A stretch of DNA of 64,000 nt from Streptomyces sp. NBC_00162 (lineage in GTDB: Bacteria > Actinomycetota > Actinomycetes > Streptomycetales > Streptomycetaceae). Below the pieces are notes generated by a model. That model had not been told where the DNA came from and made no database searches. It saw only the letters and a list, made by a program, of their open reading frames with translations. The position numbers and the translations under genes are program-made. Where the stretch lies: positions 8,432,001 to 8,496,000 of the forward strand of contig NZ_CP102509.1 of assembly GCF_024611995.1 (NCBI RefSeq), given 5' to 3'. Shown here in pieces: positions 27,403-48,241 of the stretch (its first letter is position 1; each line of letters opens with the position of its first letter).

Positions 27403-28803
27403 TACTGCAACGGTCTTTGCTCTGACAGGTTGGCAGTCTCTGGTGGTGTGTGGCCGCGTTGTTTGTAGTGGCTGGTGCGGGCCTGGAACTGTCGTCTGCG
27501 GCGCCAGTGTGACCAGTGCAGGACGTGTTCGACGGGTGCTGGTCGGCGGTGGGTGAGGCGGGTGATCAGGCGTCGGATTTCGGGGAGGGTGAGGGGTATG
27601 AGCTGGGAGGATCCGTTTCTGCTTTCCCTGTGTTGGCCTCGCGGGCCTTCAGGACGGTGAGGCAGACGTGGGCGGCCATGGCGAGGGTGATGTGGCGGTG
27701 CCAGCCGGGATATCGGCGGACCTGGTAGTCGTCCAGGCCGCATTCCTGTTTCGCGGTCTGGAAGCATTCCTCGACCGCCCACCGGCTGCCCGCAACGTGA
27801 ATGAGTTCGTCGAGGGTGGTCTCGGCGGGGCAGTAGGCGATGTAGAAGGAGATCTGGTCGGGCCGGCTCACGCTTCGGCGGGCGATGACCCAGTGCCGGC
27901 GGTCCTCGCGGTGCCAGGGCCGGACCTCCACGCGTGCCCAGTCGTAGACCCGCGGGCCGTGGGCGCCCATCCCGCAGGAACGACGCTTCCACTTCTGCCT
28001 CGCAAGGCCGTTGAACAGGTCGTGGACCGGGTGGTCCATGGCCCAGCGGGAGACGACAGTGTCGTGCCGGGTGGTGGCCATGACGTGGAAGACATCAGCC
28101 CGCTCCAACTCGGTCCGCCAGCCCTTGGAGAAGCCGTAGGCAGCGTCCGCGGTCACCCAGCGGAACGGGATCTTCTCCGCGATCGCCCGGCGGACCATCG
28201 CCTTGGCGATGACCACTTTCGTCTCGAAGGCGACCGTGTCCTCGATGCCCGCGGCCCGGCACCGTTCCCGGTCATCGGTCCACGACGTGGGCAGATACAA
28301 GCGGCGGTCGATCAGCGTGCGACCGCGTTCGCCGGCATAGGCGAGGAAGACACCGACCTGGCAGTTCTCCGTGCGGCCCGCCGTTCCCGAGTATTGGCGC
28401 TGGACGCCGGCCGAGCGGATGCCCTTCTTCAGGAAGCCGGTGTCGTCCACGATCAGGACCGCTTCGGGGTCACCGAGATGCTCGAAGACGTAGTCGCGGA
28501 CGTCGTCGAGGACTTCATCAGCGTCCCAGTCGCACCGGTTCAGCAGCCGGTGCATGCGGTCCGGGCCCCCATGCCCAGCCTCTTCCGCGAGTGTCCAGCC
28601 GTTCTTCCGCTCCAGCGGAGATACCAGACCCCGCATATACGCCAGTGCCGACTCACGCGGCTCCGACCGGGCAAACCGGTGCACGAACCGCTCATGCACC
28701 TCACCCAGACCCGCCGCCCACGCCCTCACATCACCAAGTACCCCACCCATATCCAGACCAACGACCAACCTGGCCACCAGTCACACCAAACGCCGTTGCA
28801 GTA
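27403..28803 (-). mobile_element. IS701-family element
   Basis: Terminal inverted repeats TACTGCAACGG (27403-27413) and CCGTTGCAGTA (28793-28803) are flanked by CTAG at 27399-27402 and 28804-28807, the 4-bp target duplication typical of IS701. It contains one transposase gene and is 1401 bp long. The right-hand CTAG has been split by the next element. Confidence 0.88.
27566..28777 (-). CDS. IS701 family transposase
   Basis: 403 residues, full length. DDE residues are recognisable in the IS701 context: VLIVDDTGFLKKG (first Asp), WVTADAAYG (second Asp) and SRWAVEECFQTAKQECGLDDYQVRRY (Glu, with the usual C-terminal pattern). The frame is uninterrupted, so the element may be active. Confidence 0.92.
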   Translation of the reverse strand: MARLVVGLDMGGVLGDVRAWAAGLGEVHERFVHRFARSEPRESALAYMRGLVSPLERKNGWTLAEEAGHGGPDRMHRLLNRCDWDADEVLDDVRDYVFEHLGDPEAVLIVDDTGFLKKGIRSAGVQRQYSGTAGRTENCQVGVFLAYAGERGRTLIDRRLYLPTSWTDDRERCRAAGIEDTVAFETKVVIAKAMVRRAIAEKIPFRWVTADAAYGFSKGWRTELERADVFHVMATTRHDTVVSRWAMDHPVHDLFNGLARQKWKRRSCGMGAHGPRVYDWARVEVRPWHREDRRHWVIARRSVSRPDQISFYIAYCPAETTLDELIHVAGSRWAVEECFQTAKQECGLDDYQVRRYPGWHRHITLAMAAHVCLTVLKAREANTGKAETDPPSSYPSPSPKSDA

Positions 28804-28806
28804 CTA

Positions 28807-29809
28807 GGCACTGTTTCTCGGATCTCCTGACGTGGGTGGGGTGTTGGGGTCAGGCTGGCTGCATGGGCCGTGGGGATCTGACGAACGCGGAGTGGGACCG
28901 GCTGGAGTCGTTCCTGCCTCCTGGTGGCGCCCGTGGGGGCCGGTGGAGTGATCACCGCCGGGTGATCAACGGGGTGCTCTACCGGGTTCGGACGGGCGTG
29001 CAGTGGCGGGATCTACCGGAGCGGTTCGGGCCGTGGGAGACCGTCTACAAACGCCATCGCCGCTGGTCAGCCGATGGAACGTGGACGATGCTGCTGTCCC
29101 GGATCCAGGCGACCGAAGACGCCACGGGCCAGATCGACTGGGACGTCTCGGTGGACTCGACAGCGGTGCGGGCCCACCAGCACGCCGCCGGCGCAAGGAA
29201 GGCACCGACGGCCCCGGCTCCCCAAAGGGGAACGTTGGGGGGACGAACCAGGTCGATCCGGCATTGCGGAAACTGGCGGTCCGGCTCGAGGAAGTGGTCA
29301 GATCGGCGAGTGCCTGGGACGCTCCCGCGGCGGATTCACCACCAAAATCCACCTCGCCGCTGACGGGCGATGCCGGCCTCTCGCCCTCGTCCTGACACCC
29401 GGACACTACGGTGACGGCCCGCAATTCGAGCGGGTACTGGAGCAGGTCTCCGTGCCCCGTATCGGAGTGGGACGGCCCCGCACCCGGCCCGACCATGTCC
29501 TGGCGGACAAGGCCTACACATCCCGGAAGAACCGTCGCTACCTGCGACGACGCGGAATCCGGCACACCATCCCCGAACGCCGCGACCAGCAAAGACACCG
29601 CAGGAACCGCGGTTCCCGAGGCGGCCGCCCCACCGGCTTCGACAGCGAGCGCTACAAGAAACGCAACACCGTCGAACGCGCCATCAATCGCCTGAAGGGC
29701 TTCCGCGCCGTCGCCACCCGTTACGAGAAACGCGCCTACATCTACCTCGGCACCGTCACCCTCGCAGCCCTCATCATCTGGCTCCGCACATGATCCGAGA
29801 AACAGTGCC
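28807..29809 (+). mobile_element. IS5-family element (IS427-group-like)
   Basis: Perfect 18-bp terminal repeats GGCACTGTTTCTCGGATC (28807-28824) and its complement (29792-29809). TA is present on both sides (28805-28806 and 29810-29811), consistent with a 2-bp duplication. It is inserted precisely into the CTAG target duplication at the right end of the IS701 element. Length 1003 bp. Confidence 0.88.
28863..29793 (+). CDS. IS5 family transposase in two frames
   Basis: The first part starts MGRGDLTNAEWDRLESFLPP and runs through the first Asp (VDSTAVRAHQHAAGARK). The second part, in another frame, carries GRSRGGFTTKIHL, VLADKAYTS (second Asp) and the Glu motif NTVERAINRLKGFRAVATRYEKR. The change occurs between about 29195 and 29320. 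Many members of this group express two frames by programmed frameshift, so the element may be functional. Two unrelated base losses are the alternative. Confidence 0.8.
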
Positions 29810-31394: not shown

Positions 31395-31509
31395 ACGCTC
31401 TCGGATTCCATGGCTCACGACTGCTGTGCAGGCATCAATCCGCCGTCATGCGGACGTAGGCAGTCCGACGTAACTTGGAACATGAGATCGACTGCCATTG
31501 GGAGTCCCT

Positions 31510-32022
31510 ATGCACAGACTCGGGGTGGCGCTTCTGCGCGCGGTCATGCTCCGGATCGGACAGAAGTCCAGTCCTGCCCTTCGCAGATTCATCGTCGTCA
31601 TGAGCGTGCTGCATCTCGGCGTCTATCGACGAACGGGTGGTCTGCTGGGACGACTGGGTCTGAAGCACGGCAAGATCGTGATCATCACGACGACGGGCCG
31701 TAGGACCGGCGAGCCGCGGACGGTTCCCCTCCTCGCTGTCGAGGACGGCGAAGACCTCGCGGTCATCGCTTCTCATGGGGGCCTGGACCAGCCGCCGGGC
31801 TGGTGGCTGAACCTCGGAGAAAATCCCTTCGCGACGGTCGAGATCAGAGGTCGCACCTTCCATGTCAGGGCCGAGCAGGCTGACCAACGGAAACGTGCGG
31901 AACTGTGGCTCCGGTTCGTCAAGGCTTTCCCCGGGTACGAGGATTACCGGCAGCGCACAGCCCGAGGGCTTCCCATTGTAATTCTCCATCCCGTGCCCGG
32001 ACCGGCCGTGACAGCAGGCTGA
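31510..32022 (+). CDS. deazaflavin (F420)-dependent nitroreductase-family protein
   Basis: 170 residues from ATG 31510. The DDN-type fold is recognisable by IVIITTTGRRTGEPRTVPLLAVEDG (residues about 55-80), the WWLNLGENPFATVEIRG motif and a C-terminal PVVLHPV-like strand. Family members use F420H2 to reduce activated alkenes or nitro groups. The stop is 10 bp before the PLP-enzyme gene, so they form an operon. Confidence 0.85.
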   Translation: MHRLGVALLRAVMLRIGQKSSPALRRFIVVMSVLHLGVYRRTGGLLGRLGLKHGKIVIITTTGRRTGEPRTVPLLAVEDGEDLAVIASHGGLDQPPGWWLNLGENPFATVEIRGRTFHVRAEQADQRKRAELWLRFVKAFPGYEDYRQRTARGLPIVILHPVPGPAVTAG

Positions 32023-32032
32023 GGGAGCAGGT

Positions 32033-33025
32033 ATGCGCGACCACAACGGAATCCAGCGCATTCTGGAGGCCCCGTTCGTCCCTCTGGGACAGTGGCCGAC
32101 GCCGATCTCGGCAATCTCCCGATCAAACGGGGTGGATGTCCTGGTCAAGCGTGACGACCTCTCCGGTCACGGCCGCGGAGGCGTCAAGACACGTAAGATC
32201 GAGCATCTGGTCGGGCACATGCTGGAGAAGGGGTACGGCAGCCTCGTCACCCCGGTGGGCAACGTGACCAACCTCGTACACGACATCCTCCCGGTTCTTC
32301 GACGGTTCGACATCGCATGGGAAATCGTCGTCGCTGACGTTCCGCCTCTTCCTCTCGATCAACGACGGAGGATGTTCGGCGGTCTCGGAAACAACGTGCG
32401 TCTGATCGGTCCGGGCCACATCGAGGCAGCCGGTGCGCTGGCCGGTGCCTATCACCGGAGCCGCAGAGCGGGACGGCGGCCGTTCTTCGCCCCGCCGAGC
32501 CTCGCACATCCCGCAGCGGTGATCGCTGCTGCGCGCGGTTTCCTGGAAATGGTGGGTCAGGTCGAGGCCATGGGGGTGCCGCCGCTGCAGACGGTGTTCA
32601 TCACGGCCGCGTCGGGCACCGCGTTCGCGGGTTTCGTGCTGGCGGAGAACCTCCTGCGCCTGCAAGGACATCGTCCGATCCATGTCGTCGGCGTTCAGGT
32701 TTACCCGGGCCCAGCACGCTGGTGGATCCACGGACTCGTCCGGTGGACCGAGAACCACTTGTCGGTGTCCGACCGGGTGCCCAGTGGACGCATCGACCTG
32801 AGGACGACCAGGATCTATCGCGAATTCGGTCGCTACCCAACCGACTTGGTCGAGCTGTGCACATCCGTGAAGGACGAGACAGGACTGAAACTCGACCCGG
32901 TATTCGGAGGTAAGACCTGGTCGATCATGGAGTTTTGTCTAGCCCAGGGGCGCAGCAATGGTTCCGTGTTGTATTGGCACTGCGGCTACACGCCGGACTG
33001 GGAGGTCGTGCCCGCGGCTTGTTGA
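32033..33025 (+). CDS. ACC deaminase / D-cysteine desulfhydrase family PLP enzyme
   Basis: 330 residues. The family motif VLVKRDDLSGHGRGGVKTRKIEHL lies at residues 36-60, with the PLP lysine in VKTRK. A glycine-rich phosphate loop (TAASGTAFAGF) and a C-terminal substrate loop (HCGYTP, usually HTGG) follow. Family members break C-S or C-C/C-N bonds of D-cysteine or 1-aminocyclopropane-1-carboxylate. Several positions differ from the classical enzymes (GNVTN instead of GxxSN), so the substrate may be different. The locus also has a predicted 3-amino-3-carboxypropyl transferase, making a C4 amino acid substrate an attractive but unproven idea. Confidence 0.8.
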   Translation: MRDHNGIQRILEAPFVPLGQWPTPISAISRSNGVDVLVKRDDLSGHGRGGVKTRKIEHLVGHMLEKGYGSLVTPVGNVTNLVHDILPVLRRFDIAWEIVVADVPPLPLDQRRRMFGGLGNNVRLIGPGHIEAAGALAGAYHRSRRAGRRPFFAPPSLAHPAAVIAAARGFLEMVGQVEAMGVPPLQTVFITAASGTAFAGFVLAENLLRLQGHRPIHVVGVQVYPGPARWWIHGLVRWTENHLSVSDRVPSGRIDLRTTRIYREFGRYPTDLVELCTSVKDETGLKLDPVFGGKTWSIMEFCLAQGRSNGSVLYWHCGYTPDWEVVPAAC

Positions 33026-33052
33026 GGTGGGCCGGCCCACGTCACTGAAGGT

Positions 33053-33985
33053 CTATCTCGACGGGGATCTGCTCAGCTGCCTGGCAAGCAGCGCGTCGAA
33101 GACACGTGTGGGCAGAGCGGTGGACAGGGCCACCCCCGCGCGTGCCTCCGCGCCCATGAGATAGACGGCCTTGGGATGTCGCGCATAGAGCGCATGACGG
33201 GCGGCACGGGCGACCACCGACGGTGAGATGCTCCGTCCCGCCGCGGCGGAAGCCACGTATCGCCGCATGTTCTCCAGTGTGCTGCCGTACAACTCCTTCG
33301 CTCTCGTCGGCAGTCGGTCCGTCAAGCCCTGCACAGAATGGTCTGCCTTGCTCCAGATCGGGGTCGCCACCGCTCCGGGCACGAGGACGGACACGCGGAT
33401 GTTCCATGGCCGCAGCTCGCGTCGCATCGACTCCGCTATGCCGTTCAGTGCGTGCTTTGACGCGGCGTAGGGTCCGAAGCAGGGTGCGGCGATGTGTCCT
33501 GCGATAGAGCTCGTGAAGAGTACGCGTCCGTCCCCGTGATCACGGATCAGGTCAAGAACCGCCTGAGTCACGGCCAGCTGGCCGAAGACGTTGACCTCGA
33601 ACTGGTGTCGCATCTCATCGATGGTCACGTATTCCAGGGGGCCGCCTGTCGCGGCGCCGGCGTTGTTCACCACTCCGCGGAGGCGCTGCCGGCCCAGGAG
33701 CCGGCGGATCGAATCGGCCGCCTCCGCGATCTGGCTGCCACTGGTGACGTCCAAGAGGATCTCGTGCACCGCACCTGGTAGTCCGTCGCCCTTCGGCGCG
33801 TCCCCGGCCCTACGCACACCGGCGAATACGGTCACACTTCGCCCGGCGAGGTCCAGAGCGATTGCCCTGCCGATCCCGCTGGATGTACCGGTGACGAAGA
33901 CTGCTTCGTCTCTGGTTTCCTCGAGGTGCCGACCAAAAGGTGAGTGACGCCTCACGCGGCGGCCTCCTCGACTGCTCATGAACAA
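33053..33985 (-). CDS. SDR family oxidoreductase
   Basis: 310 residues (ATG 33985; other ATG codons lie close by). Classical short-chain dehydrogenase motifs are the cofactor loop TGTSSGIG, NNAG, the catalytic Ser region FTSSIAG and YAASK. NAD(P)H-dependent oxidation or reduction of a carbonyl/alcohol is expected. The C-terminal extension (RAGVALSTALPTRVFDALL) is typical of SDRs acting on lipids or steroids. It is transcribed opposite to its neighbours and divergent from the glycosyltransferase. Confidence 0.88.
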   Translation of the reverse strand: MFMSSRGGRRVRRHSPFGRHLEETRDEAVFVTGTSSGIGRAIALDLAGRSVTVFAGVRRAGDAPKGDGLPGAVHEILLDVTSGSQIAEAADSIRRLLGRQRLRGVVNNAGAATGGPLEYVTIDEMRHQFEVNVFGQLAVTQAVLDLIRDHGDGRVLFTSSIAGHIAAPCFGPYAASKHALNGIAESMRRELRPWNIRVSVLVPGAVATPIWSKADHSVQGLTDRLPTRAKELYGSTLENMRRYVASAAAGRSISPSVVARAARHALYARHPKAVYLMGAEARAGVALSTALPTRVFDALLARQLSRSPSR

Positions 33986-34152
33986 AGAAGCGGAGCGAAA
34001 CGGTTGCGAACAGTTACGTCACCATGATGAGTGAGAACCCACCTTTGCTCCCCTGTCTCCACCGGGAGCTCGTCGGCTCATCACCCGAACGCACCACTGT
34101 CGCGTCAGTAAGCCGGCGAGCACTTATACGGAATTCGGGTTAGACTGATGGC

Positions 34153-35642
34153 ATGCTGGTGATAGCCCTTTCCGCCATGCTGGCGTTCTTCGCCATAGCT
34201 CAACTGCGGATACTGGTCATTCATGCATATTCCCAGATGAAGGGTGTCGGAGGGCAGGCCATCGAACTCACCCGGCCGACCAGTTGCTCCTGGCCGACGG
34301 TCGTGGTGCAACTCCCCATTTACCGAGAACACAAAGTTCTTTACCGACTGCTCACGGCGGTAACGAACCTCGACTATATGGATGGCCGACTCGCGGTGCA
34401 AGTTCTGGACGACTCCGAGGGGGAAGAGGCCGAGCTGGCCAAGGCCGTCGTCGACGCACATCGCGGAGGCTCCGTCCCGATCGAATACGTCCACAGGACA
34501 AGCCGCGACGGGTACAAGTCAGGGGCGCTCAACCACGGTACGCGGATGGCCGATTGCGACCTCGTGGTGATTTTCGACGCGGACTTCACACCTGATCGTG
34601 ACTTCCTCATTAAAACCGTGCCCCTGTTCGAGGATGCTCGCGTCGCTGCAGTCCATACGCGGTGGCGGCACCGCAACGGTCTTTCGTCCACTCTGACGCT
34701 GTTCCAAGCGGCGGTCATCGACAGCCTGTTCTGCTTTTCGAGTGGGATCCGCCAGGCCAGGGGGAGTCCACCATATATCTGGGGACCAGTGGGGTCTGGC
34801 GGAAGCGCGCGATCGAAGAACTCGGCGGGTGGCGCGAAGCACCGTTCACCGACGACGGCATCGACCTCAGCTTCCGTGCCCAGCTCGCGGGATGGTCGGT
34901 CGTCTTCGTCAACGAGGCATTGGCCAGCAGCGACCTTCCCGACACCTACCTCAGCTACAAAAGCCAGCAACGCCGCTGGGCGCGCGCGGCATTCCGGCTC
35001 TTCCTCGACTATGGGAAGAATGCGCTCAGTCCGCCACAGGGCAAGAGACGTCGATTTCTTGAGCTTTCTTCCTTGCACCTGGTTCTGGGTACACCGGTAC
35101 TCGTCCTGACCGGAGTGCTCTCCAGTGCATATGTCGTTCTCGGGCTCCCACGCACTCCGTACTGGGCGATCACCCAAGTCGGTCTCAGCGCGTTTCTCGT
35201 ACTGTTCCCGCCGCTGCAGGAATGCGTGCTCTCGCAGAGAATTCTGTACGACGACTGGGCGCGGCGGTGTCTGCGTCTCCCACTGTCGTTGCCGCTCGCC
35301 ATCGGCGTATCGGTCTCCATCCTGGCCGGCTTCCGGGACACGATCAAGCGAGACGAGCCGGAGTTCGTGAGAACCCCCAAGGAAGGGTCGTTGGGCATTA
35401 TCCGGAAGAGCGAAGCGAAGTGGGTCGCAACCGCCTCGCGGATCGCATGGTGTGAACTGGGCCTGGGTGTCGTGTTCCTCTCGGCCGGGCTGCTGTCCGT
35501 CGTGCGCGGGTACGCCGAATCGTGTTTCCTGCTCGCGTCCCTGGCAGGGGCTTTCCTGGTCGCGAGTGCGAGGAGCGGATCGGAGATCCGACGAGCCGGT
35601 CACCGGCCGGCTACCCCGGCCTCCGCAGGCACATCAGATTGA
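34153..35642 (+). pseudogene. family 2 membrane glycosyltransferase (cellulose-synthase-like), one frameshift
   Basis: 496 residues when corrected. An N-terminal membrane segment precedes a GT2 domain with VQLPIYRE, the DDS motif, FDADF, TDDGIDLSF and the QQRRWA acceptor motif. Several membrane segments follow. The frame breaks at the G run 34760-34764; one extra G gives QARGESTIYLGTSGVWRK, exactly where the family has a conserved GTxGVWR. No strong ribosome site precedes ATG 34153. Processive enzymes of this type make beta-glucans or mannans or glycosylate lipids. It converges with and overlaps the FkbM gene by 32 bp. Confidence 0.82.
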
Positions 35643-36561
35643 CCCGCCCGTTTCCCTGGCGACGGATCTCCCGCCGGATGGCGTCCCGGTCCTGGGGGAA
35701 CGTCACCGGTCGAGGAGGGGGCCCCGCCAGGGAGACGTCGTCGAATCCGCATGCGGCCAGGGCCGCCCAGAACGAGTCGATCGACTCACCTGCAGCGGCC
35801 AACGTCCGCTCGTTGAGCTCGATGATCAGAACCAGACCGGGATTTCGACGGCTCAGCTCCCGCATACCGGCCAACGCCGCGACCTCATGCCCTTCAATGT
35901 CGATCTTGACCAGATCCACTCGGGGCCACAGACTCTGTTCGGCCCATGCGTCCAAGGTGGTGCACGCAACGGTCTCCCTCGGCCCCGGACCATCGCCAGC
36001 CGCCGCTGCCCGGTGGATGCTGGACAGCATGCTGTCGGGCGTGCCCGCGAACAGCGTCACTGCACCGACCGAATCTCCCACGGCACTCGGCACCACGTGG
36101 ATCTCGCCGCCGACGTCGTTCTCCGCCACGTTTCTCCGCAGGATGGGGAGCAGTGCCGACGACGGCTCGAACGCCCAGACCGTGCTCGCCGCTCCGCCGA
36201 GGCGCGCGCACAGCAGCGTGAAGTAGCCGAGGTGCGCACCGACGTCCACGACCGACATGTTCGGCCTGACGAGGTGCCGGATGAGTGCCGCGACGTCGCG
36301 GTCGTGCATGCCCATCGCCAGCATCTGCAGGTGATACGAGGGGCGCCCTTCGTGGTAGAGCCGAAAGCCGTCGACCTCGACGGGGATCCCCGGATCCGTC
36401 AGAAGCGAGTGGGGAAACAGCCACCGATGCAGGGGTGCGCCGAGTTCGGCAAGGAGTGGCGCAAGGGGACCAGAGCGGTCGAACCCCCAGGCTCCGGCTC
36501 GATGAATAGCGCGTGTGCCGCGCAGAGTGAATGCGCGCAGCGGTGATGCGGGACGTGGCAC
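35611..36561 (-). CDS. FkbM family methyltransferase
   Basis: 316 residues. SAM-binding motif I VVDVGAHLGYFT, the acidic loop AFEPSS, and the FkbM-specific VDLVKIDIEGHE followed by LIIELNE are all present. FkbM members mostly O-methylate sugars or polyketide-type hydroxyls. The gene is last in a five-gene - strand operon and starts 8 bp after the CPBP protease gene. Its 3' end overlaps the convergent glycosyltransferase. Confidence 0.9.
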   Translation of the reverse strand: MPRPASPLRAFTLRGTRAIHRAGAWGFDRSGPLAPLLAELGAPLHRWLFPHSLLTDPGIPVEVDGFRLYHEGRPSYHLQMLAMGMHDRDVAALIRHLVRPNMSVVDVGAHLGYFTLLCARLGGAASTVWAFEPSSALLPILRRNVAENDVGGEIHVVPSAVGDSVGAVTLFAGTPDSMLSSIHRAAAAGDGPGPRETVACTTLDAWAEQSLWPRVDLVKIDIEGHEVAALAGMRELSRRNPGLVLIIELNERTLAAAGESIDSFWAALAACGFDDVSLAGPPPRPVTFPQDRDAIRREIRRQGNGRVNLMCLRRPG

Positions 36562-36569
36562 GAGCGGAC

Positions 36570-37334
36570 CTACTTAACTACGAGGGCAACAACAATGGGG
36601 GCGAGGACGATGTTCACCCCGTGTGTCGCCATGCAGAGCCACAGAGAGCCCGTCCGTGCGTGCACCCAGCACCAGATCATGCTCACGCCGAAAGCCCATA
36701 CAAAGTATGCTGCGCCGGCCACATACGGGTATGCAGGCAAAAGGTAGACCAGTTGGGCCGAGTGGCGGAGTCCGAACAGGGTGGACGTGACGACCGAAGC
36801 GATCGGCAGCGAGTAGCGCCCCAACAGCGAGCCTTGGAGGAATCCCCGGTAGAAGAGTTCCTCCCCGAACATGGGCCACAGTCCCAGGAAGACGTACGCG
36901 ATGATCAGCGCGAACCAGCTTCCATAACGCGCGGCGTACAGATCCGCGAACTTCCCATAGGTCGCAAGCAGGTTCCATGCGGGATCCCGCGTCTTGCCGA
37001 GGACGGTCATAGCGAGGCTGTAGAGAAGGATGAAGCCGCCGATGAACGCGATGGCGGCAGCAAACGGTCGGCCCTGCTTCGGAAGATGCGCCCGAATCTC
37101 AGGCCAGGGTCGACCGGTGGGGCGAACCCGAAACCAAAGCGGGATGACAATGGCGAGGCACGCGTGAAAGACAGGAAACGGCGCGTAGGGCCAGCCTTGC
37201 CATGACTCCGGAAGGGCGACCGCGGTGACCAGTACACCGATGCAGAGAACGGTGAGCGGGTGGAGTCCGCCGACGGGTGCGGTGGGGTCGGCGGCTTGCG
37301 CGTCCGGAACCGCGGGTCTCCTTACGTTCGCCAT
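36570..37334 (-). CDS. CPBP family intramembrane metalloprotease (Rce1-like)
   Basis: 254 residues with about seven to eight membrane segments. The catalytic motifs are EELFYRG (EExxxR), FGLRHSAQ (FxxxH) and a late His in THGVNI. CPBP enzymes cleave prenylated or membrane substrates, or protect producers from their own bacteriocins. It lies 11 bp downstream of the hydrolase gene and 8 bp upstream of the FkbM gene, so it is part of the same operon and could act in self-protection or maturation. Confidence 0.9.
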   Translation of the reverse strand: MANVRRPAVPDAQAADPTAPVGGLHPLTVLCIGVLVTAVALPESWQGWPYAPFPVFHACLAIVIPLWFRVRPTGRPWPEIRAHLPKQGRPFAAAIAFIGGFILLYSLAMTVLGKTRDPAWNLLATYGKFADLYAARYGSWFALIIAYVFLGLWPMFGEELFYRGFLQGSLLGRYSLPIASVVTSTLFGLRHSAQLVYLLPAYPYVAGAAYFVWAFGVSMIWCWVHARTGSLWLCMATHGVNIVLAPIVVALVVK

Positions 37335-37345
37335 GGTCTCATCAG

Positions 37346-38212
37346 CTACTCCACGCTTGAGATGAAGCGGCGAACGGTCTCGTTGACGAATGAGTCGTCT
37401 ACGTAGGTGATGAAGTGCTCACCACCTGGCTTGATGACCGCTGCACCCGCGTTGGGAAGCAGCGCGGCCATGCGGCGGGCCTGGGCGACCGAGACGATGT
37501 GGTCGTTGTCGCCGGAGATGACCAGGCTCGGCACGTGAACCTCGCCCGGCGTCGGGCGATGCTCGGTCAGGTTGGGAAGAATGCTGTGCTTGAACAGCGC
37601 CGTCAACCGAAAGACGACCAGCGCCTCCTGGACGATCCACTCCGGTTTGATCTGGGTCCCTCCGACGAAGCGCCCAAGGAGTGTCGCAAACACACGCGAT
37701 GACACCACTCGCTCGATGGGAAGGTGTTCCAGCATCTTCAGCCAGAAGCCGTAGGGTTGCGGGAACCGGTAACGGTCGGCCAGCCCGACGAAGACCATCG
37801 AGCGACACAACTCGGGGTGATGCTTGGCCAGATAATAGGCTGCCGCACCCGTGTCGCCCCACACGACGAAGTGCGCGCGGCTGATACCGAGGGCGGAAAG
37901 CAGGCAGCGGACCTCGTGGGCCCTGTCCTTGATGCCGACTCGCGTGTTCGTGCTGAGCAGCGGTTCATAGAGCACGACGCGGTGGTCGCGCTGGAACTCT
38001 GCGATTTGAGGTGCGTAGACGAAGTTCAGTTCGGTGACCATGGGCAGGAGTACAACGGCGTCCCCCTCTCCGCAGTCGAGTACGCGGAGTGTTCTGCCGT
38101 CGGGAAGCGTGACGGGACGCATGGCCGCCGCGATCGCTCTTTGGTCCTCGGTCATCCTCGTGCGAAGCGAGTCCGAGACGGGAGGTCGCACCCATGTGCG
38201 CGCGTCAGTCAT
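37346..38212 (-). CDS. alpha/beta hydrolase with Asp nucleophile
   Basis: 288 residues from ATG 38212, which overlaps the upstream stop by 8 bp. The nucleophile elbow reads VVWGDTGAAA with Asp at about residue 120 in the place of Ser. This is the arrangement of haloalkane dehalogenases, epoxide hydrolases and OleB-like beta-lactone decarboxylases. The acid is in VISGDNDHIV and the His in GGEHFITY. Coupling to a KAS III-like gene recalls OleA-OleB pairs of long-chain olefin synthesis, although no OleC-like ligase is present. Confidence 0.82.
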   Translation of the reverse strand: MTDARTWVRPPVSDSLRTRMTEDQRAIAAAMRPVTLPDGRTLRVLDCGEGDAVVLLPMVTELNFVYAPQIAEFQRDHRVVLYEPLLSTNTRVGIKDRAHEVRCLLSALGISRAHFVVWGDTGAAAYYLAKHHPELCRSMVFVGLADRYRFPQPYGFWLKMLEHLPIERVVSSRVFATLLGRFVGGTQIKPEWIVQEALVVFRLTALFKHSILPNLTEHRPTPGEVHVPSLVISGDNDHIVSVAQARRMAALLPNAGAAVIKPGGEHFITYVDDSFVNETVRRFISSVE

Positions 38213-39230
38213 TGCACCCCGCCTCACCGGGCAGGAGCTCGATTGCCGCTGCGCCGCAGGAGAACCCGAGGCCGAAGGCGAGAAGCAACAGCTTTTGCCC
38301 TGAACGGAGTAGGCCTTCGTCTCTGGCCAGGGAGAGATTCACCAACAGGCTGGCCGGGCCCATGTTCCCCAGGCGGCTGGCAGGCATCGGAAAAATCTCC
38401 GGCCGGAAGCCCAGAGCCTCGATGAGAACGTGCAGCATGCGAACGTTCGGCTGATGGGAGATGACGAGGTGGACGTCGTCGTGGCACCACCCGGCTTCTT
38501 CGAGTACACGGGAAACCAGGGGAGGGATGACGCGTACCCCCGTACGAACCAGGCCAGAGCCGTCCATGTCGTAGAAACCCGCTTGCACGCTGACCCCTTC
38601 GGGGCCGGCGTTGTAGCCCAGTACCGGGATGCTCCCGAGGGCCGCATGGTCGGCGTGAGTCACCCACTGGATGCTCATGACCTTCGCCGACATGCCCTGT
38701 GACGTGGTGTGCCGCTCGACCACGACCGCGCCCGCACCAGCGCCGAAGAGCCCGACCGTGCCCCTGTCCTCCGAGCTGATGATCGGCAGGAAATCCACGC
38801 TCGACGAGATGACGACCCGACTGCAACGATTGCTCGACAACATGAGCACAGCCATCTCGAACATGGCCACAGGTTCAGCGCACACTCCGTCAACGGAGAG
38901 CACTCGTAGACCCTTGAGCCCCAGCGCATTCGCCAAGATGACCCCGGACGGCGGGGTGAAGGCCGTCAGGCCGTTCTGGATGTGAAGGAGAACTGTTTCG
39001 GGGCCCAACATGTCAGGTCTCAGCCCACTCGACTGGAGAGCCGACTCGACAGCGGACACCGCCAGCGTGAGTACGTCCTCTCCTTCCCCGCAAACCCGTC
39101 GTTCATCAATCCCTGTTCGCTTCGTGAACCAATCCGTGGACAGCCCCATCGAAACAGCCAAGCCGGTGTTCGAGACAATCCTGGAGCCGACGGCATGACC
39201 GGTGCCTGAAATACTGAACTGCTCGAGCAC
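38205..39230 (-). CDS. 3-oxoacyl-ACP synthase III family condensing enzyme
   Basis: 341 residues from GTG 39230, chosen because GAAGGAG lies just upstream and the fold begins at FSISGTGHAVG. The thiolase-fold triad is intact: Cys117 (VDGVCAEP), His259 (ISHQPN) and Asn289 (LGNMGPAS). It is therefore predicted to be a working Claisen-condensing enzyme or acyltransferase of the KAS III/OleA/HMG-synthase superfamily. It shows clear divergence from primary-metabolism FabH (for example GVCAEP instead of ACAG). It is translationally coupled to the Asp-nucleophile hydrolase. Confidence 0.88.
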   Translation of the reverse strand: MLEQFSISGTGHAVGSRIVSNTGLAVSMGLSTDWFTKRTGIDERRVCGEGEDVLTLAVSAVESALQSSGLRPDMLGPETVLLHIQNGLTAFTPPSGVILANALGLKGLRVLSVDGVCAEPVAMFEMAVLMLSSNRCSRVVISSSVDFLPIISSEDRGTVGLFGAGAGAVVVERHTTSQGMSAKVMSIQWVTHADHAALGSIPVLGYNAGPEGVSVQAGFYDMDGSGLVRTGVRVIPPLVSRVLEEAGWCHDDVHLVISHQPNVRMLHVLIEALGFRPEIFPMPASRLGNMGPASLLVNLSLARDEGLLRSGQKLLLLAFGLGFSCGAAAIELLPGEAGCND

Positions 39231-39321
39231 GACCTCACTCCTTCGGGGGTGAAAGTTGGTCCGGCATCCGGCCAGGAGAAGCGAGCTGCATCTGACCTGT
39301 GAAGGTGTGGCTGGCCCAAGG

Positions 39322-40479
39322 TTACGTCCGGTGCAATTGATCCGCGACTCGCTGCTGGTCAATTCGGTAGATGTAGAAGCTGCTGTACGTAAAGGACCGG
39401 TCCCGCGCGAAGAGCCGGTGGGCGAGATCGTCCTCGCTGACCACCGCACTTCGGAGCTCCGGAGGGACAGGAAGTGAGCGTACGAGGGAACGGTAGATGA
39501 AGCGGCCGCCTGGCGTACCAGCCCTGAGCACGCTGCGCACCGTCGTATGGAGGGACTCCCGGCTCATCCAGTCAAATATGTCCAGAAGGTTGAACTTGTC
39601 GACCGACGACTCGGGCAATGAATCGAGGTACTCGGTGAGCCAGGCCGTGACGTTGACTACGCGATCAGCCGTTTGCTTCAGGGTGTCGAAGTTCCGTTCG
39701 AGGAGGTAGGGAGGAACGTTCTCCGCGTCCAGGTAGGCGCCAAAAAATGCCTGGGCGATGAAATAGTTGTCACGTATCGGGACGGTGGTCAGCACATATT
39801 CCACGCGATCGCGTATGTATCGCCCTATGTCATGACGGTCTTGAATCAGGTCATACTGGGAGGGGTGCATGCCGGCGCAGGCAAGTACCCATCGGGAGCC
39901 GAGGATTTTGAGTACCGAACCGCGCAACAACCGCGGGTGGATCTCGCGGTAGTAGAAATCGCGCTGGTCATCGATGTCGTCAACCTCGAAGAACTGGCGC
40001 ATCCGTCGCTCTCCGAGTTGGCATCGCATATAGCGGCGAATCCACTTCAAGAAGAACCCCAGCTTGCCCTGGGCAAGTATCCCGCGTTCCAGTACCCGAG
40101 TGTTACTGTCCCAGTAATTTCGTGCGTCATCAGGCAACTTTGCTCGCAGTGCTCGCCGGTAGATGTCCACCGCCTCTGTGCTGCCACAGGACGTGAGGAG
40201 AGAGCAGAAGTCGGCATGGTCAAGGTGTCGGATGCCTGCCAGCTTGAGGTCGAGCAGGTACGTCTGAGCGGGGTTGGGGTCGACGCAGATGAGCTGGCGG
40301 GGCCGTAGGCAGAGGAGGTTCAGGCAGTTGCAGCCACCCGACGTGATGGACAGAACGGTGTCCTGGTCCGCCGATATGCGGAGCGCCTCACGATCGAGAA
40401 GCGGATCCTCCCAGGACTGGTTGAATACCAATCCGCGGAAGTAGGTGCGTTCTATCAGTCGATTGAGCGTGCTCTTCAT
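39322..40479 (-). CDS. DUF3419 / BtaA-like S-adenosylmethionine 3-amino-3-carboxypropyl transferase
   Basis: 385 residues from ATG 40479. FNQSWEDP at residues 19-26 matches the BtaA signature. The SAM-binding segment SITSGGCNCL and the acidic LICVDPNPAQ follow. The C-terminal part has LLDIFDWM and GGRFIYRSL, also typical of the family. BtaA moves the 3-amino-3-carboxypropyl group of SAM to diacylglycerol in betaine-lipid synthesis. No BtaB-like N-methyltransferase is next to it, so another acceptor is possible. It is first in the - strand operon, 91 bp upstream of the condensing enzyme. Confidence 0.85.
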   Translation of the reverse strand: MKSTLNRLIERTYFRGLVFNQSWEDPLLDREALRISADQDTVLSITSGGCNCLNLLCLRPRQLICVDPNPAQTYLLDLKLAGIRHLDHADFCSLLTSCGSTEAVDIYRRALRAKLPDDARNYWDSNTRVLERGILAQGKLGFFLKWIRRYMRCQLGERRMRQFFEVDDIDDQRDFYYREIHPRLLRGSVLKILGSRWVLACAGMHPSQYDLIQDRHDIGRYIRDRVEYVLTTVPIRDNYFIAQAFFGAYLDAENVPPYLLERNFDTLKQTADRVVNVTAWLTEYLDSLPESSVDKFNLLDIFDWMSRESLHTTVRSVLRAGTPGGRFIYRSLVRSLPVPPELRSAVVSEDDLAHRLFARDRSFTYSSFYIYRIDQQRVADQLHRT

Positions 40480-40807
40480 AACGCGAGCCCCATCGCCGGC
40501 CTGGTCCTGTCGAGATGAGGGCAGTAGCACCCATTGCCCCTACTGCCCCACCCCTCCCTGTTGGTAACATTTGTCACCAGATGCTACTCCGAGTGACTCT
40601 TATTCGCTCCTTGACGCGGCGGTCGCCACCCTGCCGCCCTGCTTCCGGGCGTCCTGGACGCACCGGGCCCGGGGTCTCCTGGCTGACGGCACCCCCGGCA
40701 TGGCAGATGTGGAGTGGGCCGAAGGGTGCGCGGTGGTGCCGGCGTCAAATGGCCAGCGCTGACCGCTGATTGCTCTTTCGTCCGGCTGACCTCTCTCGGT
40801 CTGCTCG
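40480..40807 (+). other. intergenic region, no gene recognised
   Basis: About 330 bp upstream of the DUF3419 gene. AT content is higher than around it near 40550-40610 (GTTGGTAACATTTGTCACC), a likely place for the promoter of the - strand operon. A frame reading SLLDAAVATLPPCFRASW on the + strand may be a gene fragment but could not be assigned. Confidence 0.4.
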
Positions 40808-41137
40808 ATGAGCATTCCGTACGAGCTGAGAGAGGTCCTCGGGACGCCGCCGACTGCTTACGTCGCCTACACCCCTGACTCCGCCAGACCGCCCGGTGAA
40901 ACGCTCAAGGATCAGCTCGACGCTGTCGGAATGCCGGAGGCCGACCTGGCTCGGTGTACCGGTTTCCCGTGGGGAACCAGTCGGAGTCCGCCTGGCGTCG
41001 CCGACCCGAGGTGGCCGAAGGCCTGGCGCAGCTACTGGACCGCGTTCCGCCGTTCACCGTCTTGGGACCACTTCTTGATCACCGTCTTCCGCGAGTTCCC
41101 TCACATCCGAGGGGGATCGGAATCGAAGCAGAAGTGA
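40808..41137 (+). pseudogene. HigA/XRE-type HTH fragment
   Basis: Starts MSIPYELREVLG and contains PPGETLKDQLDAVGMPEADLARCTG, the N-terminal half of a HigA-like or XRE regulator helix-turn-helix. The recognition helix and everything after it are lost, and the remaining frame is unrelated. No toxin gene is adjacent. Confidence 0.4.
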
Positions 41138-41253
41138 ACGCTTTCCCGAATTTCCTGTCAGTCCTTTTCCAGCGCTTCGACGCGTACGGCTGAGTCGGCC
41201 AAGCCGGCACTTGTCACTGATAGTGGCTGGCCAGGTACATAGTGTCCGCGTTT

Positions 41254-41275
41254 GCCTGCCTTCAGTAGGGCAGGC
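41254..41275. promoter_or_regulatory. hairpin upstream of lspA
   Basis: GCCTGCC-TTCAGTAG-GGCAGGC, a 7-bp stem with an 8-nt loop, about 57 bp before the start of the signal peptidase gene. It may be an operator or a weak attenuator. Confidence 0.4.
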
Positions 41276-41331
41276 GCTATTGTGTCGTAATGCCGTCTCG
41301 TCATGGCGGCTCGGTATCAGTGGAGTGAATC

Positions 41332-41916
41332 ATGACTACCAGCAGTTCCTCGCAACCCCAGCGGGAGACAGCAGGGACCGAAACCGGCGCCCGAGCTCTG
41401 AGCAAGAGCCATCTGGCCGCATTGCTGGCAGCAGCTGGTCTCACCTACGCATTGGACCTGGGCAGCAAGCTCCTGGCCGTCTCGCGGTTGGAGAACCACG
41501 AGCCCGTCGGCGTAATCGGCCGCGTGCTCACTCTCCAGGTGATACGCAACTCGGGCGCGGCGTTCAGTATGGGCCAGGCGGTCACTGCTGTGTTCACGGC
41601 GATCGCGCTCGTGGTCGTCGTGGTCATCGTGCGTGCCTCACGCAAGCTCCACAGCCTCCCGTGGGCTCTCGCCCTGGGCCTGCTGTTGGGGGGTGCGCTC
41701 GGCAATCTGACTGACCGGATCTTCCGGGCACCTGGGGTCTTCCGAGGGCACGTCGTCGACTTCATCTCTGTTCAGCACTTCGCGGTCTTCAATCTCGCCG
41801 ACTCGGCGATTGTCTGCGGGGGAGCCCTGATGATCCTCCTTTCGTTCTTGGGCGTTTCCCTGGGCGGAACCGCCCCGCAAGACCGCCGGGACAGCGGCAT
41901 CGTCGTCCCGGGGTGA
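41332..41916 (+). CDS. lspA: signal peptidase II (lipoprotein signal peptidase)
   Basis: 194 residues with four membrane segments. Catalytic Asp motifs are complete: GNLTDR (first Asp) and FNLADSAIV (second Asp), plus the conserved NSGAAFSMG. It cleaves the prolipoprotein signal peptide before the lipidated Cys. Streptomycetes carry a housekeeping copy elsewhere next to rluD/ileS. This one stands alone beside an IS3 element, so it is probably an accessory copy. Such extra copies can confer resistance to globomycin-like inhibitors, but nothing here shows that. Confidence 0.92.
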
Positions 41917-41988
41917 CACGCATCCCCACCGCGTAGCAGATCCTGGAACCGCACCCCACCGGGCCTTGACCCCGGATCTTGAACACGT

Positions 41989-42891
41989 CTATGCGGCTTG
42001 GGCCAGGGTAGTTGCTGCTTGTTGTAGGGCGTTCTCGTAGGCGATCGGGGACCGCTGACCGAGACGGGAATGCCGGCGTCGGGTGTTGTATCGGGTCAGC
42101 CAACAGAAGGCGTCGAGTCGCGGCTCGCGCTCGTCCGACCAGCCCTTCCTGCTCTTGAGGGTCTCCCTCTTGAAGGCGGTGTTGAAGCTTTCCGCGGCGG
42201 CGTTGTCCGCGTTGGACCCGACCGCACCCATGCTCTGCCGGACCCCTGCTGACCTGCAGATTTCAGCGAAGATCTTACTCGTATATTGCGACCCGTGATC
42301 GGTGTGCATCACCGCTGCGGCCAAGCTCCCGCGGGTCCGCTCAGCTACCGCCAGGGCGTCGATGACGAGCTGGGTGCGCATGTGGTCGGCGATGGCCCAC
42401 CCGGCGAGCCGGCGTGAGGCGAGGTCGACGACGGTCGCGAGATAGAGCGGCTTCCCACCGCTGACCGGCGGGTATGTGATGTCGCCGACGTACTTCGTGT
42501 TCACCGCGGCCGCGGTGAAGTCACGTCCGATCAGATCCGGTGCCTTCGGCGCCGCCTGGTCCGCGACGGTGGTGCGGTGCCGGCGGCGCAGACGCACTCC
42601 CTCGAGCCCGATGGTCCGCATGATCCTGGCGACGCGCTTGTGGTTGATCACCGGGCCGCCCTCGTCGCGGAGCTCGGCGGTGATCCTGGGGGCTCCGTAG
42701 GTTCCGTCGGAGTCCTGGTGGGCCTTGCGTATCCGGGCTGCGAGCCCGGCCTCGACGGCCTGCCGGGCCGCCCTCGCGGCTGCGGTGCGGCGCCAGTAGT
42801 AGAAGCTCGAGCGGGCCAGGCCGAGAATGTCACAGAGCCGCTTGACGCCGAAACGGCGCTGGTGATCTTCAACGAACTGGCAGCGGTTCAC
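41989..42891 (-). CDS. IS3 family transposase OrfB
   Basis: About 300 residues from GTG 42891. It has an HTH_21 region (RKAHQDSDGTYGAPRITAEL) and an rve integrase core with YVGDITYPP (first Asp), MHTDHGSQYTS (second Asp) and NAAAESFNTAFKRE (Glu). In IS3 elements it is usually made as an OrfAB fusion by -1 frameshift at the overlap (42869-42891). Confidence 0.92.
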   Translation of the reverse strand: MNRCQFVEDHQRRFGVKRLCDILGLARSSFYYWRRTAAARAARQAVEAGLAARIRKAHQDSDGTYGAPRITAELRDEGGPVINHKRVARIMRTIGLEGVRLRRRHRTTVADQAAPKAPDLIGRDFTAAAVNTKYVGDITYPPVSGGKPLYLATVVDLASRRLAGWAIADHMRTQLVIDALAVAERTRGSLAAAVMHTDHGSQYTSKIFAEICRSAGVRQSMGAVGSNADNAAAESFNTAFKRETLKSRKGWSDEREPRLDAFCWLTRYNTRRRHSRLGQRSPIAYENALQQAATTLAQAA

Positions 42892-43252
42892 CAGCGCGCG
42901 TCTCCGTCGCGAAATACCGGGCCGCCTTGCGGTGAATGTCACGCTCTTCCTCAAGCTCACGGATCCTCTTCCGGGCAGCGGCCAGATCTGCCTGAACGTC
43001 GCCACCGCCCACCTGCACAGCAGCCAGCCGAGCGGAGTCAGTGCCGGGCTGGCGCCCGTCGGCGGCCCGGATCCAGTTCCGCAGCGTCTCGGTGTTCACC
43101 CCGAGATCGCCGGCGACGGACTTGATCGTCGCTCCCGGCCTCGACCGGTACAACGCGACCGCGTCCGCCTTGAACTCGGCGGGGTAATGCTTCATCCCCA
43201 CGGGGACTCCGTTCTCCTGGACCATCAAGAACCAAGTGTCTCCGGTGTCCAA
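42869..43252 (-). CDS. IS3 family transposase OrfA
   Basis: DNA-binding OrfA with KHYPAEFKADAVALYRSRPG, the helix-turn-helix TIKSVAGDLGVNTETLRNWI and the leucine-zipper region AARKRIRELEEERDI. The likely start is ATG 43195 (MKHYP), although the frame is open from 43252. Confidence 0.88.
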   Translation of the reverse strand: MDTGDTWFLMVQENGVPVGMKHYPAEFKADAVALYRSRPGATIKSVAGDLGVNTETLRNWIRAADGRQPGTDSARLAAVQVGGGDVQADLAAARKRIRELEEERDIHRKAARYFATETRAGEPLPVR

Positions 43253-44237: not shown

Positions 44238-44437
44238 GGGCTGTCCCGTAACTGATCTTTGGCATGAGAGTGGTCGGCTGTGATCGGTTCCTGGGTCCCA
44301 CTCTGTGGAAGAGGCGCCGGCCTCGGTTCACCCCTGTGACCGCACGAGACAGCAGCGGATGCCAGGGGCCGTCCTCCCGGCAACGTGTGGATCCACCCGC
44401 CCGGGGAGATGAGCAGGGCCCCTGTTATCGTGCGCCG

Positions 44438-44869
44438 ATGTCAACGATCAAGCAGTTCCAAGTGACCTTCGACTGCGCGGAACCTGCGCGCCTCGCCGCC
44501 TTCTGGTGCGAGGTGCTGGGGTACGTCGTACCGACAGTCCCGGAGGGCTTTGCCACGTGGGAGGAGTACCACCACTCGCTGCCGCCTGAGGACGAGGTCT
44601 ACTTCGCGTGCGCTGATCCCTCGGGTGTGGGCCCGCGCGTGCTCTTCCAGCGAGTTCCCGAAGGCAAGGTCGTCAAGAACCGGGTGCATCTTGATGTGCG
44701 GGTCGGCACAGGGCTTGTGGGTGACGAGCGCCTGGCCACACTCGAGGCCGAATGCGCACGGCTGATGGCGCTCGGCGCGAAGCACGTGCTGACGCAGCGC
44801 GTCGATGGCGTCAACGAGTCGTGCATCACGATGCAGGACATCGAGGGCAACGAGTTCTGCCTCGCCTGA
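44438..44869 (+). CDS. VOC / glyoxalase family protein
   Basis: 143 residues from ATG 44438. The vicinal-oxygen-chelate pattern is seen in QVTFDCAEPARLAAFWCEVLGY (first module) and in NRVHLDVRVG...MQDIEGNEFCLA (second module with the metal-ligand His and Glu). Members with this FDCAEPARLAxFW start are common in Streptomyces and of unknown substrate. No partner gene is adjacent. Confidence 0.85.
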   Translation: MSTIKQFQVTFDCAEPARLAAFWCEVLGYVVPTVPEGFATWEEYHHSLPPEDEVYFACADPSGVGPRVLFQRVPEGKVVKNRVHLDVRVGTGLVGDERLATLEAECARLMALGAKHVLTQRVDGVNESCITMQDIEGNEFCLA

Positions 44870-44936
44870 TTCTCCTCCGAGACTGCGAGGGGGAGCCGTC
44901 TCCCGGGGACCTCTCAGGTCTCGTATGCGGCAGAAG

Positions 44937-47359: not shown

Positions 47360-48241
47360 ATGAACTGGGTCGTGCCGGCGATGGAGCAGTTCCTGGGCTC
47401 CTCAGCCGGACTGGCGCCGGCCACGGTGACCCGGCTGACGAAGCAGTGGACCGCCGATCAAGCCGCCTTCCAGCGCCGTGACCTGGCCGAATCCGACTAC
47501 GTCTACGTGTGGGCCGACGGCGTCCACCCCAAGATCCGCCTGTCCGAGACCCACTCCTGCCTCCTGGTCCTGATGGGTGTGCGGGTGGACGGCACCAAGG
47601 AACTGATTGCGATCGCCGAGGGCCTGCGCGAGTCCACCGAGTCCTGGGCCGATCTTCTGCGGGACTGTCGCCGGCGCGGGATGCGCGCCCCGATGCTCGT
47701 AGCCGGCGACGGCGCGATGGGGCTGCGGAGGGCATCGGCGGAGGTGTTTCCGCAGGCCAGGCACCAGAGGTGCTGGGTCCACAAGACCAGGAATGTCATG
47801 AACGCACTGCCGAAGTCCGCCCAGCCCGGGGCGAAGAAGGCCCTGCAAGAGATCTACAACGCCGAGGACCGCGACCACGCCGAGAAGGCGATCACCGCGT
47901 TCGACAAGGCATACGGGGTGAAGTGGCCCAAGGCGGTGAAGAAGATCACCGGTGAGGCTGATGAGCTGCTGGCGTTCTACGACTTCCCCGCCGAACACTG
48001 GGTCCATCTTCGGACCACGAACCCGATCGAGTCGACCTTCAGCACCGTGAAACTCCGGACCAAGGTCACCCGCGGCGCCGGCCGCCCCACCGCCGCCCTC
48101 ACGATGGTCTTCAAGCGCGTGGAATCCGCCCAGGCCCGCTCGCGAGCAGTCACCGCACCTCACCTCGTCGCGCTCGTCCGAGCCGGCGCCCACTTCGAGA
48201 ACGGTCACCTTGTCGAACGCCCCGAGGACCTCGCAGCATGA
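47360..48241 (+). pseudogene. IS256-family (Mutator) transposase, 5' truncated
   Basis: 293 residues of the mutator-type core. The first Asp is in VYVWADGVHPKI, the second in MLVAGDGAMGL with the RCWVHKTRNVMN motif, and the Glu in NPIESTFSTVKLR. Roughly the first 110-120 residues of a normal IS256 transposase are missing, and the left side joins the sigma/anti-sigma locus. The right end (CAAGTCTTGACCATTAC, 48260-48276) is present. Confidence 0.82.

Follow-up and report, generated by a model that had tools for sequence, protein, structure and literature searches.

BtaA-family enzymes are makers of phosphorus-free betaine membrane lipids, and BtaA together with BtaB leads to diacylglyceryltrimethylhomoserine (DGTS). 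Here we examine a member of this family, also designated DUF3419, and the ten-gene block that holds it, in a stretch of 64,000 nucleotides from Streptomyces sp. NBC_00162 (contig NZ_CP102509.1, positions 8,432,001 to 8,496,000 of the forward strand); this stretch, referred to below at its full length as the window, lies at 8.432-8.496 Mb on a contig of 8.635 Mb. The protein resembles the BtaA of betaine-lipid synthesis in belonging to the same family, in sharing 40 conserved residues and in its predicted class-I S-adenosylmethionine (SAM) enzyme fold, but its gene has no BtaB beside it and belongs to a separate clade tied to genes for a KAS III-like enzyme and a pyridoxal phosphate (PLP) enzyme.

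Other genes of the block have described relatives as well. The KAS III-like enzyme shares with FabH the thiolase-type Pfam domains and the Cys-His-Asn triad, but differs from it in its low identity to FabH-like sequences, in a score below the fabH model cut-off and in the sequence around its active-site Cys. The PLP enzyme belongs, like 1-aminocyclopropane-1-carboxylate (ACC) deaminase and D-cysteine desulfhydrase, to the fold type II family and has the same lysine region (KTRK), but it lies far below all of the family cut-offs. For signal peptidase II (LspA), passages of a review (PMC8689077) give two lspA copies for the globomycin producer and four for M. xanthus, two of the latter (lspA3/4) being part of the myxovirescin cluster and considered protective for the producer. 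The block described here also brings a second intact lspA, inside a candidate biosynthetic block and in carriers only (among 12 genomes of the genus); it differs from these systems in containing no nonribosomal peptide synthetase (NRPS) or polyketide synthase (PKS) gene.

The ten genes are common, with the same content and order, to three genomes: that of the window (G000) and two further carriers of the same genus (G1030 and G1340). They form a real, mobile and under-described biosynthetic locus. A first-pass annotation of the window had proposed that a BtaA-like transferase and a KAS III-like enzyme form the core of a biosynthetic locus, and the proposal is upheld in part, by the presence of the block in three genomes, by a trio of its families that recurs elsewhere, and by the lack of a btaA-btaB pair. 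The two checks that it had named as able to overturn the proposal did not do so. Our preferred reading, to which we assign a probability of about one half, is that the block is a mobile locus for a non-betaine lipid with a SAM-derived aminocarboxypropyl (homoserine-type) group, tailored by the other enzymes encoded in it.

The DUF3419 transferase and betaine-lipid synthesis

The match of the window protein to PF11899 (290.9 bits) supports its assignment as a BtaA-like transferase. In a comparison of three DUF3419 groups (the window clade, a planctomycete-type group and BtaA), all 40 residues conserved over the groups are kept in the window protein, which suggests that the transferase is probably active; the Sinorhizobium meliloti sequence, a faulty translation that forms a very long branch in the tree, was excluded from this comparison. 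The predicted structure (pLDDT 92) shows the fold of class-I SAM enzymes together with a long helical stretch, and no chain in the PDB matched the DUF3419 profile at E ≤ 1e-3.

A methylating partner commonly stands next to genes of this family. A BtaB-like methyltransferase gene adjoins DUF3419 in 23 of 25 planctomycete loci (the exceptions being L004 and L025), and a class-I methyltransferase follows DUF3419 in S. meliloti (as a match in two pieces), in Rhizobium leguminosarum and in genomes G006 and G533. Beside the DUF3419 gene of the island no BtaB was found: the only matches in the window are weak (E 4e-5 and 8e-5) and lie at 3.0-3.3 kb, 36 kb distant. Across the window's own genome there were 0 BtaB matches at E ≤ 1e-10, in a search that included no positive-control genome; the same query finds the planctomycete partners at E 6e-29 to 8e-16.

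In a DUF3419 tree of 114 rows, built by a quick method and containing several long branches, the island protein and all six DUF3419 rows linked through their contigs to the companion families described below fall into one clade of 27 rows (approximate likelihood-ratio support, SH-aLRT, 97), and four BtaA sequences with a BtaB-like neighbour fall outside it. Of 13 positions that are group-specific, the window clade shares 10 with the planctomycete-type group and 2 with classical BtaA. The agreement with the planctomycete-type group leads us to expect a lipid, so that the acceptor of the transferase is probably still of this kind.

Ordinary betaine-lipid (DGTS) synthesis, with neighbouring genes that have nothing to do with it, was the explanation that the first-pass annotation had set against its own proposal. 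It draws on the clear membership of the protein in the DUF3419/BtaA family, with the conserved residues of that family, and on a tree position near the planctomycete-type clade (the fork itself being unresolved), whose sampled loci carry BtaB. We reject it as highly improbable, given that BtaB is absent both beside the gene and, at the threshold used, from the genome, that the query does recognise the planctomycete partners, and that the island clade is linked to KAS III and PLP genes instead.

Other arrangements of DUF3419 were seen in passing. A btaA-btaB-like pair occurs in G006 (L044 / L002), of the same genus as the window, and betaine-lipid genes thus likely occur in the genus. On a Mycobacterium riyadhense plasmid (L058, 3485-6202) a partial DUF3419 match has no btaB beside it; its neighbours are an iron-containing redox enzyme, a GNAT acetyltransferase and an RND transporter. 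In four proteins of 615-631 residues (P0067, P0073, P0075 and P0081), DUF3419 is joined in one chain with a methyltransferase domain of PEMT type (PF04191).

KAS III-like and PLP enzymes as companions of the transferase

The first-pass annotation had asked whether its nine genes co-occur, or are found in unrelated contexts in relatives. Three of the families (DUF3419, KAS III and PLP) recur together outside the block; the ties among the others are seen inside copies of the block only. The co-occurrence is inferred from identical lengths of metagenome contigs in the lists of homologues, which number 111, 169 and 252 in total for DUF3419, KAS III and PLP, respectively; of the 111, 120 and 120 rows shown, the comparison took the 34, 59 and 40 closest for which a length is given. 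DUF3419 and KAS III share four lengths (11801, 4212, 49163 and 15438 bases; 0.10 expected by chance), DUF3419 and PLP also four (100095, 9957, 49163 and 15438; 0.10 expected), and KAS III and PLP two (49163 and 15438; 0.13 expected), such that two contigs, of 49163 and 15438 bases, hold all three families. On the contig of 100095 bases, the DUF3419 and PLP proteins are both named Chloroflexota. Beyond the compared rows, DUF3419 and PLP were seen by eye to share lengths of 3000 and 3267 bases, which may be chance. At the 25 planctomycete DUF3419 loci, many of them on short contigs, no block gene besides DUF3419 had a match at E ≤ 1e-5 (all block genes except lspA being tested).

Each of the three families was found in few of the genomes sampled. 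DUF3419 matched in two of 150 genomes in a first draw (the own genome, and G006 at 36%) and in two of 396 in a second (the own genome, and G533 at 35%); neither draw turned up a close relative in another genome, and G1030 and G1340 surfaced in later draws. For the KAS III subfamily (E ≤ 1e-40), draws from the class, the order and the genus gave 2 genomes of 394, 3 of 391 and 3 of 372, respectively; these counts include the own genome and come from overlapping draws, and the genomes concerned are G000, G1030, G1340 and G385 (48%). Within the phylum, the PLP enzyme was found in one of 281 genomes, the own genome only. The closest protein clusters contain 21 (DUF3419), 17 (KAS III) and 15 (PLP) member sequences, and further near-identical copies therefore probably exist.

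The Cys-His-Asn triad that had been noted in the KAS III-like enzyme is intact (C128, H270 and N300, invariant in 29 aligned rows). The active-site Cys stands in the context GVCAEP in 22 of these 29 rows and in a close variant in five, whereas two FabH-like rows carry AGCTGF and AACSGF at this place. The score of 142.4 bits is under the fabH model cut-off of 292.1; listed members of the subfamily are 37-75% identical to the window protein, besides one cluster at 99%, and the FabH-like rows are 28-32% identical to it. The enzyme may condense or acylate, the sequence being indecisive between the two. A 48% relative in G385 (L043, 9980-16634) has a different neighbourhood, beside an SDR (short-chain dehydrogenase/reductase), a ketosynthase and a P450-reductase fusion.

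As for the PLP enzyme, its description as ACC-deaminase-type is apt for the fold family and goes too far for the function: it scores 54.1 bits against the ACC-deaminase model (cut-off 392), on which ground we reject an ACC deaminase, and it is also far below the D-cysteine desulfhydrase model cut-off. The window protein has the motif DPVFGGKTW, whose F and following G are invariant in 27 aligned rows. ACC-deaminase chains read DPVYEGKS (1rqx), DPVYTGK (1j0a) and DPVFEGKS (1j0e) here, so the motif alone does not discriminate; we take the Tyr-Glu of DPVYEGK to be active-site residues of ACC deaminase.

The recurrence of KAS III and PLP with DUF3419 also bears on a rival in which diacylglycerol is not used: the KAS III-like enzyme would make a beta-keto acyl nucleophile, DUF3419 would alkylate it with the C4 unit of SAM, the PLP enzyme and the reductases would lead on to a small product, either an amino acid or an alkaloid, such as an alkyl piperidine carboxylate, and the family-2 glycosyltransferase (GT2) and FkbM methyltransferase would decorate the product. 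The intact KAS III triad and the two reductases of the block suit such a route, as does the divergence of the window clade from classical BtaA at 11 of the 13 group-specific positions, and passages of a review of SAM chemistry (PMC10491745) describe aminocarboxypropyl transfer to varied small-molecule nucleophiles in other enzyme families. Its likelihood is low in our estimate, though not negligible, because the positions shared with the planctomycete-type group, whose loci carry BtaB, suggest a lipid acceptor, and because GT2 has its best matches, all far under the cut-offs, among membrane GT2 models (CelA and PgaC, for instance). From these matches and its hydrophobic stretches, as a reading and not a computed prediction, GT2 is a putative membrane enzyme.

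The hydrolase had been taken for an enzyme with an Asp nucleophile. The GxSxG motif is absent, and the elbow reads WGDTGA; in alignment with two esterases, their Ser falls on a Gly and the Asp stands one residue further. Asp is thus a possible nucleophile.

Extent, conservation and origin of the block

Compared with the window, the main segment of the block is 97.7% (G1030) and 96.9% (G1340) identical by blastn, and the right-hand segment, which holds lspA, 93.7% and 95.4%, respectively. The left edge falls at 31409 or 31427 and the right edge at 41937 or 42004, and a stretch at 40.9-41.2 kb is unconserved among the three carriers. At E ≤ 1e-20, with 104 kb taken from G000, 75 kb from G1030 and 39 kb from G1340, the sole match outside the block is 0.6 kb with G1030 (44311-44903), with none to G1340; the block therefore sits in differing surroundings.

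All genes of the block except GT2 have an open frame in each of the three genomes, and GT2 has one in two of them: the window copy lacks one base in a run of G near 34760 relative to G1030 and G1340, which may be a real mutation or a homopolymer sequencing error. The ratio of nonsynonymous to synonymous substitution rates (dN/dS), calculated from few differences for each gene, is 0.11-0.46 for the F420 reductase, PLP, SDR, FkbM, hydrolase, KAS III and DUF3419 genes, 0.26-0.93 for CPBP, 0.30-0.60 for lspA, and 0.36 for GT2 (from one usable pair, the two intact copies of G1030 and G1340). The reading frames of the block are mostly under purifying selection.

The G+C content at third codon positions (GC3) is 0.72-0.80 across all ten genes, compared with 0.898 in the housekeeping lspA and 0.96 in two KAS III-like genes elsewhere in the genome, a low value that fits an origin outside the core chromosome. 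The block is probably a DNA island from elsewhere. No repeats were found inside either edge, nor any words of at least 9 bases common to both edges, direct or inverted, and a mobility mechanism was not found. Transposase genes of several families lie around the block (27566-29793, 41989-43252, 47360-48241 and 52703-53578), and for the IS3 element at its right edge, near relatives occur in 61 plasmid records, of which 60 are from Streptomyces. The 16S gene of the genome is 96.1% identical, along its whole length, to a Streptomyces record that ranked first in the plasmid collection, ahead of Pseudarthrobacter at 91.4%; one record at 99% or more was outside the eight listed, in a ranking that weighs coverage. 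Carriage of the block by plasmids is rejected, as no plasmid record carries it at the DNA level; among plasmid records DUF3419 occurs in 14 at 24-33% identity and PLP in two Pantoea records at about 24%, with no match for KAS III or the hydrolase at the limits used. Also rejected are viral carriage, as viral contigs gave no match to the DUF3419 pattern, and anti-phage defence, as PADLOC matched none of the five proteins tested.

The genes and their coordinates are given in Table 1. The nine genes named in the first-pass annotation are all present close to where it placed them, in families that score above the Pfam gathering thresholds, and its five-gene operon is borne out: DUF3419, KAS III, hydrolase, CPBP and FkbM are close together on the minus strand, with a 23-nt overlap between KAS III and hydrolase and next gaps of 11 and 8 nt. 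Among the points that call for correction, the SDR gene does not face the operon, being on the same strand, between the PLP and GT2 genes; and the count of nine omits a tenth gene inside the shared block, lspA. Its remark on the absence of PKS, NRPS and terpene genes is right within the block, where none of the ten genes matched an NRPS, PKS or terpene core synthase; a polyprenyl synthase is found outside it, at 60066-61334.

Table 1. Coordinates of the shared block and of its ten genes in the window.
Feature	Position	Strand	Basis
Whole conserved block	31409..42004	no single strand	blastn against G1030 and G1340 (window and 20 kb on each side); GC3
F420H2-dependent quinone reductase / deazaflavin nitroreductase family	31510..32022	+	PF04075, 112.8 bits; TIGR00026
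Fold-type-II PLP enzyme	32033..33025	+	PF00291, 47.4 bits; homologue alignment; solved-structure comparison
Short-chain dehydrogenase/reductase (SDR)	33053..33985	-	PF00106, 136.5 bits, match from residue 28
Family-2 glycosyltransferase (GT2), frameshifted	34153..35642	+	two overlapping open reading frames; PF00535 and PF13632; three-genome alignment
FkbM-family methyltransferase	35611..36561	-	PF05050, 64.4 bits; TIGR01444, 96.8 bits (cut-off 37.7)
CPBP / Rce1-like intramembrane protease family protein	36570..37334	-	PF02517, 62.3 bits
Alpha/beta hydrolase without GxSxG	37346..38227	-	PF00561, 35.1 bits; esterase alignments; motif check
KAS III-like enzyme, separate subfamily; exact start not fixed	38205..39263	-	PF08541 and PF08545; homologues; alignment
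DUF3419 / BtaA-family SAM 3-amino-3-carboxypropyl transferase-like protein	39322..40479	-	PF11899, 290.9 bits; tree; structure model
Second lspA (signal peptidase II)	41332..41916	+	PF01252, 113.7 bits; TIGR00077, 87.8 bits (cut-off 73.95)

Some gene starts were refined. The frame of the F420 reductase opens at a TTG at 31498, and the three-genome alignment makes the ATG at 31510 the probable start, because the upstream TTG is no start codon in G1340. The first codon of the SDR gene (TTG) reads TAG in G1340, where the frame is open from a downstream start, and the true start is probably downstream of 33985. For DUF3419, the open frame reaches 40530 and the likely ATG is at 40479.

Outside the block, a minus-strand group at 54563-61334 encodes an MMPL transporter, an FAD-binding protein, a class-I methyltransferase and the polyprenyl diphosphate synthase already mentioned, whose best matches, below cut-off, are mycobacterial prenyl synthase and encapsulin-cargo prenyl transferase models; this group is perhaps an isoprenoid locus.

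We found no description of a locus like the ten-gene block in the titles and starts of abstracts searched, a coverage that excludes most subscription journals. In the passages concerned with it in the review of SAM chemistry (PMC10491745), BtaA is named for betaine lipid only, and the relevant part of a review of actinomycete products (PMC12159101) has one passage on aminocarboxypropyl groups, which concerns arsinothricin.

A second lspA and the proposed product

The island lspA encodes a full-length LspA that scores above the curated TIGR00077 cut-off and is 63% identical to the housekeeping copy, which is intact at 6.187 Mb. Among the 12 genomes of the genus in which copies were counted, two lspA are found in each of the three carriers and one in each of the nine non-carriers. 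In the gap between DUF3419 and lspA, three open reading frames were tested, and none had a Pfam match better than E 0.22. The extra lspA copies of the globomycin and myxovirescin producers make it plausible, by analogy, that the island copy is a target-type self-resistance gene, and in our opinion the second lspA is the best clue to the purpose of the locus.

The extra LspA could instead support lipoprotein processing in a membrane that contains a new lipid, and this would agree with a complete enzyme 63% identical to the housekeeping copy, as well as with the presence in the block of a second membrane-protease family gene (CPBP). We hold this to be decidedly unlikely, in view of the extra copies in the two producers, including the pair in the myxovirescin cluster that is thought to be protective according to the passages cited (PMC8689077), and of the block's Pfam matches, which include no lipoprotein gene, although none was specifically sought.

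For our preferred reading, a non-betaine aminocarboxypropyl lipid, the following pathway can be drawn. In its first step a homoserine-ether lipid would arise, as the BtaA-family enzyme, by analogy with its family, moves the 3-amino-3-carboxypropyl group from SAM onto diacylglycerol or another lipid alcohol of that kind. Because there is no BtaB, the amino group would not be trimethylated, and would be free for the PLP enzyme and for an acylation or condensation involving the KAS III-like enzyme. The SDR and the F420 reductase might then reduce keto or ene groups, GT2 might add a sugar and FkbM methylate it, and the hydrolase, the CPBP protein and the second LspA might serve in trimming or immunity. 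As predicted from these genes, the product is probably amphiphilic, glycosylated and methylated, and bears a SAM-derived C4 amino acid.

Several observations weigh against this reading. The link among DUF3419, KAS III and PLP is recurrent and not obligatory, and concerns three of the ten genes: with the planctomycete-type rows and the window's own cluster set aside, there are ten DUF3419 relatives on contigs 9 kb or longer, of which five (contigs of 26694, 331216, 22874, 858275 and 13860 bases) have no KAS III or PLP on a contig of equal length and two have PLP alone. For six of the nine genes the comparison was confined to copies of the same block, and the presence of these genes in a recently moved block does not prove that they belong to one pathway. 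The block comprises five transcription units of alternating direction, less like one tight cluster; GT2 is frameshifted in the window genome; and lspA is separated from the rest by about 0.8 kb of DNA with little conservation. A carrier protein, a ligase, an exporter and a regulator were not recognised among the ten genes and the three plus-strand open reading frames before lspA. Low GC3 is also found in other genes of the window, at 56987-58672 (0.73) and 60066-61334 (0.75), with 0.53 in an S1-domain gene at 43710 and 0.83 in the IS3 gene.

One rival is a mosaic of hitch-hiking genes, in which DUF3419, KAS III and PLP would be one unit and the others, lspA included, would have separate roles. 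The several directions of transcription, the restriction of outside ties to three families, the frameshift in GT2 and the variable DNA before lspA all speak for it; the similar composition of all ten genes (again with lspA), the same content and order in three genomes and the tight packing of the five-gene operon speak against it, and on balance we regard a mosaic as unlikely, if worth keeping in mind.

A more specific version of the lipid reading, which we offer as a speculation with little probability, is that the locus makes a lipid antibiotic that mimics the substrate of LspA, with the island LspA as the matching self-resistance copy. Homoserine on diacylglycerol would resemble the S-diacylglyceryl-cysteine that LspA recognises, and the KAS III-like enzyme and the SDR could give a beta-hydroxyacyl group on the amine, with its hydroxyl near the scissile bond. 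Such a hydroxyl would parallel the "blocking hydroxyl" of globomycin and myxovirescin.

In the block described here, a BtaA-family enzyme has apparently parted from its methylating partner, and is found with KAS III and PLP enzymes in mobile DNA, in a setting that lacks the core synthases which cluster-finding rules would be expected to seek. The trio of families on environmental contigs indicates that this is probably no oddity of a single strain. If our reading is true, it would open a class of homoserine-derived specialised lipids, and self-resistance through LspA would point to a target of medical interest.

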